Shown here in pieces: positions 16,116 through 25,550 of a stretch of DNA of 29,101 bases. Position numbers and translations under genes: made by a program. Position 1 is the first letter of the stretch; each line of letters opens with the position of its first letter. This stretch comes from a virus. The notes below the pieces were generated by a model. The model worked only from the letters and a program-made list of their open reading frames with translations, made no database searches and was not told where the DNA came from. The stretch is from IMG/VR virus record IMGVR_UViG_3300000224_000010, positions 75 through 29,175 of that record. The stretch is one strand, 5' to 3'.

Positions 16116-16483
16116 TAAAACTCCTCACCATCGTCTTGTTCTGCTACTTCTAGCACCTTGATCTTGTTAAGGTAGGTGCTAGTGCCGTGTACTGGATGTG
16201 GTGCGCCTGACTCAGCCCATAAGAGCCGTACCTTAGAACCTCGACCAATCCGACCTGTAAAGGGCATACCTTCCTTGTCGTAGATGGGTACATCATATTT
16301 AGTGGCAAACTTCCGCTGTTTGACACCCTCATACTCTCGCAGCTTAACGCCCATGCCGCTTAAATTATCAGCAGTATCATCATCTAAACTAATGACTACT
16401 GAGTATTTACCTGTGGATTGACCTTGATACATTTCGTGAGTATCTAGGTTCTCAAATGCCAATGTGCCTTCTACTACTGCCAT
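16115..16483 (-). CDS. Single-stranded DNA-binding protein (gp2.5-like)
   Basis: A 122-residue, beta-rich, OB-fold-like protein (EGTLAFENLDTHEMYQGQ ... GKYSVVISLDD ... RGSKVRLLW) with an acidic C-terminal tail EQDDGEEF. The acidic tail ending in Phe is the hallmark of T7 gp2.5, where it binds the polymerase. It is about half the length of T7 gp2.5, so this is a reduced form or a related small SSB family. Position as first gene after the consensus promoter at 16574-16602, directly before primase-helicase and polymerase, supports the role. Good ribosome binding site (GAGGAAG). Confidence 0.8.
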   Translation of the reverse strand: MAVVEGTLAFENLDTHEMYQGQSTGKYSVVISLDDDTADNLSGMGVKLREYEGVKQRKFATKYDVPIYDKEGMPFTGRIGRGSKVRLLWAESGAPHPVHGTSTYLNKIKVLEVAEQDDGEEF

Positions 16484-16504
16484 AGTTACTTCCTCGCTTG
16501 TTAT

Positions 16505-16518
16505 GATACTTAAGTATC
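16505..16518. promoter_or_regulatory. Perfect 14-base palindrome, putative operator
   Basis: GATACTTAAGTATC lies in the leader between the replication promoter and the SSB start codon. Its 12-base core ATACTTAAGTAT is found again at 18665-18676 in the leader of the plus-strand unit. A second CTTAAG at 16565-16570 (TTCTTAAGTAT) lies at the expected transcription start of the same promoter. Confidence 0.6.
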
Positions 16519-16573
16519 GTTTAGTTAAACTTTAATTATAATCTTTAAAATATTTCCTTTGCTTCTTAAGTAT

Positions 16574-16602
16574 ATTATACTGCTAATTGATTGACCTGTC
16601 AA
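16574..16602 (-). promoter_or_regulatory. Sigma-70-type promoter for the replication genes
   Basis: On the minus strand: TTGACA (16602-16597), 17-base spacer, TATAAT (16579-16574), a full match to the bacterial housekeeping consensus. It reads into SSB, primase-helicase, polymerase and downstream genes. It is embedded in the last codons of the small cysteine-rich gene that ends at 16583. Confidence 0.9.
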
Positions 16603-16777
16603 GTACCAATTCATCTAATTTTAATTCAACGTTAGAATCACTCCACGCATCTTGCATTGCATCCGTTGAATACCTAGCACAAACATTACATAGGTCTAAA
16701 TGGTGTCCGGTGTTGTGGTCAATACGCTTAAGCTCGTATTCATTCATAATCACATCACATGCTTTACATCTACTCAT
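16583..16777 (-). CDS. Small cysteine-rich (zinc-finger-like) protein
   Basis: A 64-residue protein with CKAC (Cys4, Cys7) and CNVC (Cys30, Cys33), a spacing suited to one zinc site, plus HH at about 25-26. Short two-pair zinc proteins of this type in phage early regions are usually regulators or host-protein binders, but no specific family is recognised. It overlaps the preceding gene by 4 bases (ATGA). Its 3' end contains the consensus promoter of the SSB operon. Confidence 0.75.
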   Translation of the reverse strand: MSRCKACDVIMNEYELKRIDHNTGHHLDLCNVCARYSTDAMQDAWSDSNVELKLDELVLDRSIN

Positions 16778-16992
16778 TTGAACACCTCGTTATATTTCTT
16801 TGTCATATTCTCGTATGAATTATTATAGTATTCATCCGTCATTTGCTTGGTTACTCTAGCCATTAGCTCAGAGAGGGACATACAATATACTTGGTACTCT
16901 ATAAGCTCATTAACCATGTTCTGTGCCGCTGGCTCTATCCACTCGCTAGGCTCGTACTCATAGCCTATTAGCTCCTCTTTAATCTTGCTCAT
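16774..16992 (-). CDS. Small acidic helical protein, unknown
   Basis: A 72-residue protein (MSKIKEELIGYEYEPSEWIEPAAQNMVNELIEYQVYCMSLSELMARV ...). ATG at 16992 is chosen over the in-frame TTG at 17004 because GGGAGAG lies just upstream. Predicted helical, without cysteine pairs or catalytic motifs. It overlaps both neighbours (14 and 4 bases), as is usual in this small-gene cluster. Similar short 'YEYEPSEWIEP' proteins occur in marine phages; function unknown. Confidence 0.75.
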   Translation of the reverse strand: MSKIKEELIGYEYEPSEWIEPAAQNMVNELIEYQVYCMSLSELMARVTKQMTDEYYNNSYENMTKKYNEVFK

Positions 16993-17173
16993 ATACTCTC
17001 CCAAAGGTTATCACTATAAAGGGCAAGTATAACAGAACACCCATAAACGGTAAAGCCCCTATCTCTTCTGTTTCCCTGTTAACTGTCCACACTGCGCGAC
17101 TATCTGCCAGTTCTAAGAACACCCCACAACCGTTAATAAGCTCTATGCTTAAATGCCTGTTAAATATCATCAT
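16979..17173 (-). CDS. Small protein with one hydrophobic segment
   Basis: A 64-residue protein beginning MMIFNRHLSIELINGCG. Residues about 41-57 (LPFMGVLLYLPFIVITF) form a hydrophobic stretch compatible with a single membrane span, leaving a 40-residue polar N-terminus. Start overlaps the upstream stop (ATGA), and an alternative ATG lies one codon later. A membrane-active early protein is possible; holin function cannot be assigned from a single segment. Confidence 0.7.
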   Translation of the reverse strand: MMIFNRHLSIELINGCGVFLELADSRAVWTVNRETEEIGALPFMGVLLYLPFIVITFGRVYEQD

Positions 17174-17337
17174 ACGCTTGCCTCCATTAATCCCGCTTTA
17201 GCTTTGAGCGACTCAATAGCCGCGTCTATCTCCCATTTTTGCATAGGCTCATACTCGTATGCATCCGGCAATTCTTGGGCATCGTGTAGGTCGTCACCGT
17301 GTAGCCAATCCCGTGCGTCGTCATTCCAACCACTCAT
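17170..17337 (-). CDS. Small acidic protein, unknown (55 residues)
   Basis: Reads MSGWNDDARDWLHGDDLHD ... and ends LMEASV. It has a very good ribosome binding site (GGAGGTGAC directly upstream) and 4-base overlaps with both neighbours, which is strong evidence that it is translated. Asp/Glu/Trp-rich, with 'DAYEYEPMQKWEIDAAIESLKAKA' as a likely helix. No known family recognised. Confidence 0.75.
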   Translation of the reverse strand: MSGWNDDARDWLHGDDLHDAQELPDAYEYEPMQKWEIDAAIESLKAKAGLMEASV

Positions 17338-17498
17338 AAGTCACCTCCAAGCACTACAACTGCCATTGTATACATTATAAGGGCTATTACAGCCGTTCCA
17401 ACGCTTAAGAGTGCCCAACCTACCACATCGACTATAAACGTCTTACGTGCGTCTCTATGGGCTTCTCGCTTGTCCATCAATATTTTTGCTTTGTTCAT
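17334..17498 (-). CDS. Small membrane protein (54 residues)
   Basis: Reads MNKAKILMDKREAHRDARKTF followed by a hydrophobic segment of about 28 residues (VGWALLSVGTAVIALIMY and on to VVVL) and a short GGDL tail. Basic N-terminus and a single membrane span suggest an inner-membrane protein with its N-terminus in the cytoplasm. AGGAG ribosome binding site upstream; start and stop overlap neighbours by 4 bases. Holin or small membrane regulator are both possible. Confidence 0.72.
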   Translation of the reverse strand: MNKAKILMDKREAHRDARKTFIVDVVGWALLSVGTAVIALIMYTMAVVVLGGDL

Positions 17499-17581
17499 TT
17501 TTTATTTCTCCTATCGTGTTTGCCTGATTCCCAGACCGCATATAGTCCGGACGTAATTAATAATATACTCAATACTAGCAT
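17495..17581 (-). CDS. Very small membrane peptide (28 residues)
   Basis: Reads MLVLSILLITSGLYAVWESG and ends HDRRNKK. A hydrophobic N-terminal helix followed by a basic tail. Evidence for translation: an AGGAGGG ribosome binding site 7 bases upstream of the ATG, a 7-base overlap with the upstream gene and a 4-base ATGA overlap with the downstream gene. No family recognised. Confidence 0.65.
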   Translation of the reverse strand: MLVLSILLITSGLYAVWESGKHDRRNKK

Positions 17582-17730
17582 AATTCAACCCTCCTATGAT
17601 TTAAATAGCGGCCAATTCGAATGACCTTGTGTGCTTTGTCTACCGGCATTCCGTAGTATTCCGCGAATCGTTCAACTGTTAAAAAGTTATTGAACCAATC
17701 AAGGTACAATGCTTCTATTTTGTTTTTCAT
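17575..17730 (-). CDS. Small DNA-binding-like or regulatory protein (51 residues)
   Basis: Reads MKNKIEALYLDWFNNFLTVERFAEYYGMPVDKAHKVIRIGR and ends in a short basic tail. The segment 'FLTVERFAEYYGMPVDKAHKVI' has the look of a small helix-turn-helix (…FAEYYG…A..VI). Proteins with this 'DWxNNFLTVExFAEYYG' pattern recur in marine phages. The start overlaps the 80-residue gene by 4 bases. A transcriptional role is plausible but unproven. Confidence 0.72.
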   Translation of the reverse strand: MKNKIEALYLDWFNNFLTVERFAEYYGMPVDKAHKVIRIGRYLNHRRVELC

Positions 17731-17969
17731 GCTGTCACCTCATTAGTTAAGTTATCAATAAAATCTTGTGCTACTGCTTCAACATCAGCCATAACACCTT
17801 TTAACCAGTTATTAACGTGTTTTGTCGTGGTAACACTATACTTGGTGCTAGTCTTAACGTATCGACCGCTTGGAAGCATTGCGGCCACTGGTGTCTCATA
17901 GCTAAATAATACTACTGTACCGTTGATTAATAGTTCCGTTTGGTTACTACCTATTTGTTTCAGTTTCAT
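17727..17969 (-). CDS. First gene of early unit; small beta-rich protein
   Basis: An 80-residue protein reading MKLKQIGSNQTELLINGTVVLFSYETPVAAMLPSGRYVKTS, then TTTKHVNNWL. This 'IGSNQTEL...VLFSYETPVAA' pattern is widespread in small phage proteins of unknown function (possibly what is catalogued as DUF8033; I cannot check). It is the promoter-proximal gene of the minus-strand early unit, with AGGAG and a 50-base leader behind a sigma-70-type promoter, so it should be made first in infection. Confidence 0.78.
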   Translation of the reverse strand: MKLKQIGSNQTELLINGTVVLFSYETPVAAMLPSGRYVKTSTKYSVTTTKHVNNWLKGVMADVEAVAQDFIDNLTNEVTA

Positions 17970-18018
17970 CTGGTGTTACTCCTAATTGTTTGTGTTTGTT
18001 TGTTTGCTTGATGGGTTC

Positions 18019-18047
18019 AGTATAGCGCCTAGGCTAACAATGTACAA
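18019..18047 (-). promoter_or_regulatory. Early promoter for the minus-strand unit
   Basis: On the minus strand: TTGTAC (18047-18042), 17-base spacer, TATACT (18024-18019). The -10 box matches 5 of 6 consensus bases, the -35 only 3 of 6. The spacer contains an 8-base palindrome GCCTAGGC (18027-18034), which may be an operator. It lies about 50 bases ahead of the first early gene. Confidence 0.65.
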
Positions 18048-18186
18048 TGATTTAAACGCATGACCTATATAAACTATATGCATCTAGTGCATGACTATAT
18101 GCTACCTTCTAACACACGCGTGCGCGTAGCAATAACCATGCCAACTATTGTAGGGTTGTGTCATGCAAGAGTCATGCCAATGTTTA

Positions 18187-18206
18187 CTAGTGTGTGCTAG
18201 TGTGTG
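18187..18206 (+). repeat. Tandem repeat CTAGTGTGTG x2
   Basis: Two directly adjacent copies of the 10-mer CTAGTGTGTG, followed by CT, immediately left of the DnaA-box-like cluster. Confidence 0.85.
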
Positions 18207-18218
18207 CTATAGGTATCC

Positions 18219-18325
18219 TTATGCACACTCACACTTGCCTGTGGATAACTTATGTATAACTTATGCACACCTTATGCACAGGCCCTGTATAACTCATGTA
18301 TAACTTATGTATAACCTGTGGATAA
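18219..18325. other. Putative replication origin: DnaA-box cluster
   Basis: Two perfect DnaA R-boxes (TTATCCACA, read on the minus strand) at 18240-18248 and 18317-18325 bracket the cluster. Three one-mismatch boxes TTATGCACA lie on the plus strand at 18219-18227, 18261-18269 and 18272-18280. Four TGTATAAC units lie at 18253, 18286, 18297 and 18308. A related TTATGCATA is at 18420-18428. An AT-rich stretch follows to the right (about 18500-18700), a possible unwinding region. Boxes of this density are the known signature of bacterial-type origins bound by host DnaA; function here is inferred. Confidence 0.65.
18286..18325 (+). repeat. Iterons spaced 11 bp
   Basis: TGTATAAC begins at 18286, 18297 and 18308, an exact 11-base period that keeps all copies on one face of the helix, then TGTGGATAAC begins at 18317. 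A fourth TGTATAAC at 18253 follows the left perfect DnaA box. The units share the ATAACTTA extension with the DnaA boxes. Confidence 0.8.
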
Positions 18326-18404
18326 CTTAGGGGGCGGGGGGCCGCGTGGTTTCTTGTGTGTATCAGCGGTACCCTCCGGTATACAAAATAGTAGGAAATT
18401 AGGA

Positions 18405-18432
18405 TTGACAACTGTATCCTTATGCATACTAT
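18405..18432 (+). promoter_or_regulatory. Candidate distal plus-strand promoter
   Basis: TTGACA (18405-18410), 16-base spacer, TACTAT (18427-18432). Perfect -35 and a 4-of-6 -10. The spacer holds the right-hand GTATCCTTATGCA repeat, so transcription from here could be affected by proteins on the origin cluster. A further TTGACA at 18475-18480 has no fitting -10. Confidence 0.5.
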
Positions 18433-18532
18433 AACCTCTTGTAATACATAAGAAAACACAGGTCGCCCCTAGGGTTGACACAAGCAGCCTAAAGGGACAG
18501 GAGAATAACTTAGATAATAGAGTAAATAATGC

Positions 18533-18561
18533 TTGACTTCTGATTAATAATATGCTATAAT
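18533..18561 (+). promoter_or_regulatory. Strong plus-strand promoter for packaging genes
   Basis: TTGACT (18533-18538), 17-base spacer, TATAAT (18556-18561), with a TGC extended -10. Near-consensus for the host housekeeping sigma factor. A 10-base palindrome TAGTATACTA (18565-18574) covers the expected start point. Nearly the same promoter recurs at 23147-23175. Confidence 0.87.
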
Positions 18562-18596
18562 AACTAGTATACTAAAGAGATAAAGATAACCAAGAG

Positions 18597-18685
18597 CCTT
18601 AAGGGTACTTAAGAAAAACTTTAAGAATTAACTTTAAAGAAATAATTAAAGTAAAAACTAAAGCATACTTAAGTATACTTAAGAT
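18597..18685. promoter_or_regulatory. Array of CTTAAG palindromes in the leader
   Basis: CTTAAG-centred sites are centred at 18600.5 (CCTTAAGG), 18610.5 (TACTTAAGAA), 18670.5 (ATACTTAAGTAT, perfect) and 18680.5 (ATACTTAAGAT). The spacing is 10, 60 and 10 bases, so all lie on the same helical face. A 12-base direct repeat AAGATAACCAAG at 18583-18594 and 18681-18692 flanks the array. The layout suggests a dimeric regulator bound in pairs, possibly with looping. Confidence 0.55.
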
Positions 18686-18701
18686 AACCAAGGGGTATAT
18701 T

Positions 18702-19094
18702 TTGAGTGATGAAAAGCAGCCTATTGTAAAAAAGAAAGGCAGACCAAAGAAGAAAGATGTTGTGTCAAAAACAACAGGCAATAGAAATAAGGTAGGTCGT
18801 CCTAAAGGTGATGCTTCAATCATTAACGACTATAAAGCTAGAATGCTTGCTTCACCTAAAAGTAGGAAAGTATTAGATTCTATATTGTCAGCAGCATTGG
18901 ACGATGACCATAAGAATCAAGCAGCAGCATGGAAGCTTTGTATGGATAGATTACTACCTGTCAGTTACTTTGAGAAGGATAAAGCAACTGGGGGCAAGAG
19001 TGCGATTAATATATCAATTACAGGCGTTGGTGGAGAAACTACTGTTATCTCTGGCAACCAAGAACCCATTGAAGGGGACTACACAGATGTATAA
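18702..19094 (+). CDS. Putative small terminase subunit / DNA-binding protein with AT-hook-like motifs
   Basis: A 130-residue protein. Residues 12-37 contain KGRPKKK and VGRPKGD, two AT-hook-like basic motifs; residues 40-90 are helical (DYKARMLASPKSRKVLDSIL, then KNQAAAWKLCMDRLLPV). First gene of the plus-strand packaging unit, two genes before the large terminase, the usual place for the small terminase that recognises phage DNA. The start is TTG, chosen because AAGGGG lies 6 bases upstream and no in-frame ATG gives a better site. A different DNA-binding role cannot be excluded. Confidence 0.6.
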   Translation: MSDEKQPIVKKKGRPKKKDVVSKTTGNRNKVGRPKGDASIINDYKARMLASPKSRKVLDSILSAALDDDHKNQAAAWKLCMDRLLPVSYFEKDKATGGKSAINISITGVGGETTVISGNQEPIEGDYTDV

Positions 19095-23146: not shown

Positions 23147-23175
23147 TTGACTTTTACTTTATAATATGATATAAT
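23147..23175 (+). promoter_or_regulatory. Strong promoter for scaffold/capsid genes
   Basis: TTGACT (23147-23152), 17-base spacer, TATAAT (23170-23175) with a TGA extended -10. Same boxes, spacing and GCTTGACTT / TAATATG surroundings as the promoter at 18533-18561. It begins 2 bases after the stop of the 39-residue gene. Confidence 0.87.
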
Positions 23176-23221
23176 ATATAGAGTAACAACTTTAATAACT
23201 GTCCTTAGGGAGAAACAGTGA

Positions 23222-25502: not shown

Positions 25503-25519
25503 AGTTAAGAAGTAAACTA

Positions 25520-25550
25520 GGGGATTCCTTTGGAGTCCCCTTTTCTTTTT
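25520..25550 (+). terminator. Rho-independent terminator after capsid gene
   Basis: GGGGATTCC, loop TTT, GGAGTCCCC (9-bp stem with one wobble) followed by TTTTCTTTTT. It separates the capsid gene from the fibre genes, so fibre transcripts would depend on read-through or an undetected promoter. Confidence 0.85.

Follow-up and report, generated by a model that had tools for sequence, protein, structure and literature searches.

Conserved CTTAAG palindromes in the replication and packaging leaders of a virus genome as probable pairing arms of a common RNA structure

The DNA analyzed here, called the window, is a stretch of 29,101 nucleotides (29 kb) of IMG/VR virus record IMGVR_UViG_3300000224_000010, and all positions are window coordinates. 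Its replication unit on the minus strand and its packaging unit on the plus strand are each preceded by a leader containing CTTAAG palindromes, which an earlier note had read as operators of one dimeric protein. The TerL protein of the window has distant matches alone among deposited phages, with best identities of about 30-40%; the nearest relatives of its primase-helicase are the pelagiphages HTVC115P, HTVC103P and HTVC104P (about 51%), and those of its portal are HMO-2011-type phages (about 22%). Comparison of these three proteins revealed no close cultured relative, and the window falls within a large, seemingly uncultured group of marine podovirus-like phages. The replication genes are T7-like. 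T7 encodes a polymerase for its own transcription; in this 29-kb genome part we saw no gene for an RNA polymerase. The two main units start from host-type promoters.

The packaging leader starts from a sigma-70-type promoter at 18533-18561 (plus strand; TTGACT-17-TATAAT with a TG before the -10 element), which is conserved in relatives. Four CTTAAG sites follow on the same strand, namely A1 (18598-18603), A2 (18608-18613, 10 bp from A1), B1 (18668-18673) and B2 (18678-18683), with centres at 18600.5, 18610.5, 18670.5 and 18680.5. Between the two pairs, a central stem-loop is predicted at 18614-18667, with an inner inverted repeat (18621-18637 / 18646-18662). Downstream lie a Shine-Dalgarno-like AAGGGG (18690-18695) and the gene for the small terminase, TerS (18702-19094, plus strand, TTG start at 18702), which we assigned from its position before TerL; its product has two GRPK motifs and no Pfam or PHROGs match.

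On the minus strand, the replication promoter (16574-16602; TTGACA-17-TATAAT) is followed by a CTTAAG at the predicted start point (16565-16570), which could pair with 16509-16514 in the window, and by a hairpin, GAUAC-UUAA-GUAUC (16505-16518), before the gene for the single-stranded-DNA-binding protein (SSB). Both promoters are near-consensus sigma-70-type. The palindrome ATACTTAAGTAT occurs at 16506-16517 and 18665-18676, and its first copy sits inside a 14-bp palindrome, GATACTTAAGTATC, at 16505-16518; TACTTAAGTA has two exact copies in 29 kb, one in each leader. The similarity of the leaders extends past the palindrome, 16506-16549 on the minus strand resembling packaging leader 18633-18676 (84% over 45 columns, E 2e-6). 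A search of 16400-18800 with Rfam covariance models had no hit at E values up to 1. The replication promoter overlaps the 3′ end of a Cys-rich 64-aa gene just upstream of the leader (16583-16777, minus strand), which belongs to PHROG 10364, of unknown function.

All site coordinates of the earlier note proved correct, including that of the start-point CTTAAG at 16565-16570. In the whole window, neither CTTAAG (16 observed versus 14.5 expected) nor TACTTAAGTA with up to two mismatches (27 observed versus 29 expected) is enriched. What is unusual about CTTAAG is not its total number but its clustering and its density outside larger open reading frames (ORFs): it reaches 1.9 per kb outside ORFs of at least 100 aa versus 0.3 per kb inside, and ten relatives show a bias in the same direction. 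The motif is concentrated outside genes rather than being equally frequent within them, and, as the earlier note had supposed, an element of the same kind stands in both leaders and is conserved in relatives. The 19-mer ATACTTAAGTATACTTAAG is present in 60 IMG/VR stretches, and the four-site, double-pair design in at least 120 IMG/VR contigs, in most of which it stands before TerS, down to a TerL identity near 48-50%. There it typically has a TTGAC-N17-TATAAT promoter on one side and the gene on the other. Among TerL relatives chosen regardless of the motif the design was frequent, not universal. Bacterial and archaeal genomes yielded 12 stretches with the same pattern, mostly tandem repeats, none resembling these leaders, and we found no paper connecting CTTAAG palindromes with phage leaders. 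The CTTAAG elements are real, conserved and common to the two operons.

The geometry originally proposed for them fared less well. The sites had been placed on one helical face, but the 60 bp separating the two pairs correspond to 5.7 turns at 10.5 bp per turn, which puts the pairs out of phase. In relatives the two members of a pair stay 10 bp apart, mostly exactly, while the first site of one pair lies anywhere between about 49 and 83 bp from the first site of the other. The CTTAAG at 16565-16570 in the replication leader falls at about -4 to +2 of the predicted start point and is not preserved as a palindrome in most relatives.

These sites probably serve as the paired arms of a structured leader RNA common to the replication and packaging transcripts. 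The segments 18598-18613 and 18668-18683 form an inverted repeat of 16 nt (88% complementarity) that encloses another one. In the packaging transcript, A1-N4-A2 would pair with B1-N4-B2 over 16 positions (14 Watson-Crick pairs and one G-U) and close an imperfect stem-loop of 86 nt with a central stem, which would begin about 30 nt into the predicted transcript and leave 6 nt between its end and the Shine-Dalgarno sequence. The mean predicted pair probability is 0.95 for A2-B1 and, with a shorter 3′ context, 0.67 for A1-B2. Constrained to this long-range fold, the window leader has an energy of -23.0 kcal/mol, versus -18.7 for local hairpins; in the free optimum (-23.9) B2 pairs with the start region, which a second hairpin covers. 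We did not retain this start-region pairing, which is found in the window but by eye is missing from several relatives. A group of relatives that includes L085, L118 and L219 has its last CTTAAG within an overlap with the Shine-Dalgarno sequence (CTTAAGGAG); pairing there would cover the ribosome site.

Folding was compared with shuffles that keep dinucleotides. The window packaging leader gave a z of -2.07, and mean z values were -2.94 for leaders with two CTTAAG pairs (n = 26), -2.67 with one (n = 12) and -2.09 with none (n = 22), versus -0.29 in upstream and -0.64 in coding controls. Apart from this comparison, several terminase relatives that lack CTTAAG (L021, L036 and L034) have a strong, unrelated long-range stem (z about -4), and such stems are common in relatives of this kind. 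Across 24 representative leaders, the long-range pairing was dominant in many, local hairpins in some and an A1-B1 pairing in three; by inspection, L147 has two tandem hairpins.

Natural variation in the arms also points to pairing at a distance. Four intact hexamers are present in 43 of 75 distinct packaging leaders; in the other 32 the deviating hexamers are mostly non-palindromic (CTTAGG, CCTAAG, CTAAAG, CTTTAG), and long-range pairing was better than local pairing in 5 of these leaders and worse in none. Between L014 and L510, A2 changes from CTACAG to CTACGG together with B1 from CTTAAG to CCTAAG, a long-range compensation; from L291 to L288, the same B1 change faces an A2 reading CTTAGG. 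Further long-range compensation was found in L376, L286, L201, G010 and L148. Pairing just outside A1/B2 exceeds that in shuffles (1.24 versus 0.70, p 0.004), whereas outside the local A hairpin it is depleted (0.05 versus 0.40). The alternative of local A1-A2 and B1-B2 hairpins was rejected: they are weaker in the window, their flanks do not pair, and deviating hexamers match the distant partner at least as well as the neighbour.

The clearest evidence for the palindrome as a pairing stem is the covarying hairpin of the replication leader, where the second palindrome would fold into a small hairpin 21 nt upstream of the start codon. Among relatives of the SSB gene, CTTAAG is often lost while a hairpin of 5-7 bp is kept before the start codon, in most cases 19-27 nt upstream of the ATG. 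Its stems differ in sequence and share the context AACCAAAC-[hairpin]-ANAAC; at the homologous place we found GAUAC/GUAUC, GAUACU/AGUAUC, GUAUACU/AGUAUAC, GGGUAC/GUACCC, GCUACU/AGUAGC, GAUCC/GGAUC and GACCCU/GGGGUC. In an anchored test of replication leaders, 18 of 23 arms had a full partner in their own leader, versus 44 of 161 swapped arms. We consider this test fairer than the stem score, because the hairpins scored were preselected for having stems. The replication leader of L246 shows a long-range compensation (CTTAAGAGGTCTTTAG / CTAAAGACTTCTTAAG), and those of G005, G010 and L201 follow the same design as the packaging leader, with long near-perfect stems. Compensatory changes are clear in the replication hairpins and in individual packaging leaders; outside the hexamers, pair-bearing leaders show no general excess of them.

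Several observations weigh against this interpretation. The same preselection biases the perfect stem score of the replication hairpins, and the p-values ignore the relatedness of the phages. The replication leader of the window folds no better than its shuffles (z +0.99), and RNAalifold favoured local hairpins on the window clade. With CTTAAG masked, pair-bearing leaders showed no excess of long-range pairing of own over swapped arms (mean z +0.34), so that it is the hexamers on which their long stem depends; for several leaders without the pairs this test gave strong support. The two N4 spacers resemble each other (p 0.002), as expected of repeated protein sites, and are not complementary (p 0.56); spacer complementarity as a proof of the stem was sought and none was found. 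Spacer mismatches show no excess of G-U over A-C (3 versus 9), which does not single out RNA. Lastly, hexamers that are unchanged in 43 of 75 leaders are more constant than pairing alone requires. Because of this constancy, the likeness of the spacers and the missing G-U excess, some factor that recognizes the sequence in RNA or DNA may act besides pairing; a need for more than one pairing partner, if there is one, would likewise freeze the hexamer sequence. The four near-invariant hexamers of the packaging leader may also have a function as DNA.

We infer that the leader works as RNA and affects, in cis, the transcript that carries it. Its most likely action is control of mRNA fate, by 5′ protection or RNase III-type processing together with access to the ribosome site, an assignment that we put forward as tentative, close to evenly balanced but short of probable. 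The RNase III processing stem-loops of T7-type phages are long imperfect hairpins with an internal loop. The leaders described here share with them a long imperfect hairpin with an internal loop, a place in intercistronic or leader RNA and T7-like replication genes, and differ in a hexamer sequence that is nearly frozen; the predicted length and internal loop of the packaging stem are compatible with an RNase III processing signal. Another comparison is phage T4 gene 32, whose product, the phage SSB, represses its own mRNA via a structured leader (PMC535899). Here too a structured AU-rich leader precedes the gene for a phage single-strand-binding protein. A pseudoknot is a feature of the T4 leader; in the present phages a related leader also stands before the packaging unit. 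If the proposed function is correct, a shared structured leader absent from Rfam would represent a testable control element in hundreds of contigs, with natural leader variants as ready-made mutants.

Antitermination is an alternative role for the RNA that we judge unlikely, yet worth serious attention. The nascent leader would bind host RNA polymerase and allow terminator read-through in long operons, as does the put RNA of phage HK022, which spans about 70 nt just downstream of PL, consists of two stem-loops binding the beta-prime zinc-binding domain and works without any phage protein (PMC9378689). The leaders resemble put in that RNA with structure, some 70-90 nt long, stands close to the transcript start, in having host-type promoters and in occurring in two transcription units. 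The position of the structure just after a host-type promoter in each of the two multi-gene units, a terminator-like site within the rightward one (25519-25541), the put precedent that no phage protein is required (PMC9378689) and the lack of a visible RNA polymerase gene in the 29-kb part would all suit such a role. However, put has two stem-loops, where the constrained fold of the packaging leader gives one, enclosing the central stem, and the replication leader has a short hairpin; the free optimum of the packaging leader adds a second hairpin, and L147 has two in tandem by inspection. The terminators in the region number no more than expected from shuffling (10 versus 9.4).

The proposal of the earlier note, DNA operators, seems rather improbable. 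A phage protein would bind duplex CTTAAG-N4-CTTAAG and repress or loop the packaging promoter, and also act on the replication promoter via the start-point site. Near-invariant hexamers with 10-bp spacing within pairs, the alike spacers (p 0.002), the concentration of sites outside genes and the site at the replication start point all argue for it, and repeated palindromes near promoters recall the palindromic operator pairs of phage repressors. Unlike in such pairs, the palindromy of single sites is not kept: packaging hexamers lose it while several keep complementarity to a distant partner, and in replication leaders CTTAAG is often lost while the compensated, covarying hairpin stays, as would not be expected of independent dimer operators with helical phasing. 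Variation of the pair-to-pair distance (49-83 bp) is a further difficulty. No repressor gene tracking the sites was found among the three candidates that had been named. The 51-residue helix-turn-helix-like gene is present in 14 of 62 contigs with a CTTAAG-type replication module versus 11 of 20 with another type, and the Cys-rich gene, in 62 of 62 versus 14 of 20, does not specifically track the motif. The AT-hook-like protein at 18702 is the small terminase, 77-89% identical across both leader types. An RNA leader is more likely than a set of dimer operators.

Two other genes do track the motif, SSB (62 of 62 CTTAAG-type contigs versus 0 of 20) and a 76-aa ORF (53 of 62 versus 0 of 20), and both belong to the block that is exchanged together with the leader. 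At least two CTTAAG are found in the packaging leader of 60 of the 62 CTTAAG-type contigs and of none of the 20 others; six independent switches of leader type and replication module are all concordant (p 0.031). L039 and L042, whose TerL is identical, have neither the leader nor the replication module in common, and among phages with near-identical terminases (L039, L042, L043, L484 and similar ones) whole early modules comprising replication genes, packaging leader and TerS start have been swapped. In six close pairs that we aligned, the edge of homology falls inside the first 12-31 codons of TerS (about +37 to +93), and one exchanged block thus explains the co-segregation of leader and module. 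We therefore rejected co-segregation as proof of a matched trans factor, since a single block including the TerS start suffices. A factor matched to leader type, beyond linkage, is possible. The fuller scheme, in which each early module carries its own matched leader pair, recognized by a module-encoded factor (SSB or the 76-aa ORF by best co-occurrence), and late expression is tied to DNA replication via the shared RNA element, is a long shot. Within the other module type, evidence for a shared leader sequence is suggestive in three contigs (E 3e-4 to 3e-3) and absent in two. In two contigs of that type, at 9.0-9.3 kb of L484 and 6.3-6.6 kb of L486 (reverse-complement coordinates), the early region contains a second leader-like stem-loop resembling the contig's own packaging leader; that of L484, read rightward, seems to be preceded by a promoter-like sequence.

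That the repeats are a pac or cos site bound by terminase is very improbable: they do lie directly upstream of TerS, and the exchanged block holds the first 12-31 TerS codons along with the leader, but the same element type occurs in replication leaders away from TerS (G005, G010, L201), TerS is 77-89% identical across leaders wholly different in sequence, and the element lies downstream of a promoter, with its end close to the ribosome site. Functionless repeats of low-complexity leaders are scarcely credible, for although the leaders are AT-rich and full of TTAA and TTTAAAG, and CTTAAG is not enriched across the genome, the double pair occurs in at least 120 contigs and at about 48% terminase identity, and the leaders fold well below dinucleotide-keeping shuffles.

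Other elements were noted nearby. An array at 18231-18331 looks like an origin region: it holds about seven repeats of 11 bp, among them DnaA-box-like units (TGTGGATAAC, TTATGCACA), and is situated some 270 bp before the packaging leader. In G001, G002, G004, G007 and G008 the leader is likewise preceded by clusters of DnaA-like boxes. The terminator-like hairpin at 25519-25541 is strong, has a T-rich tail and comes just after the major capsid gene; in T7-like phages, a comparable terminator hairpin follows the capsid gene. Inside the rightward unit, 23147-23220 contains a third strong promoter (TTGACT-17-TATAAT) with a small hairpin, ACUGU...ACAGU, that has a ribosome site in its loop, and a similar leader is found in L043, L063 and L021, regardless of the type of their packaging leader.

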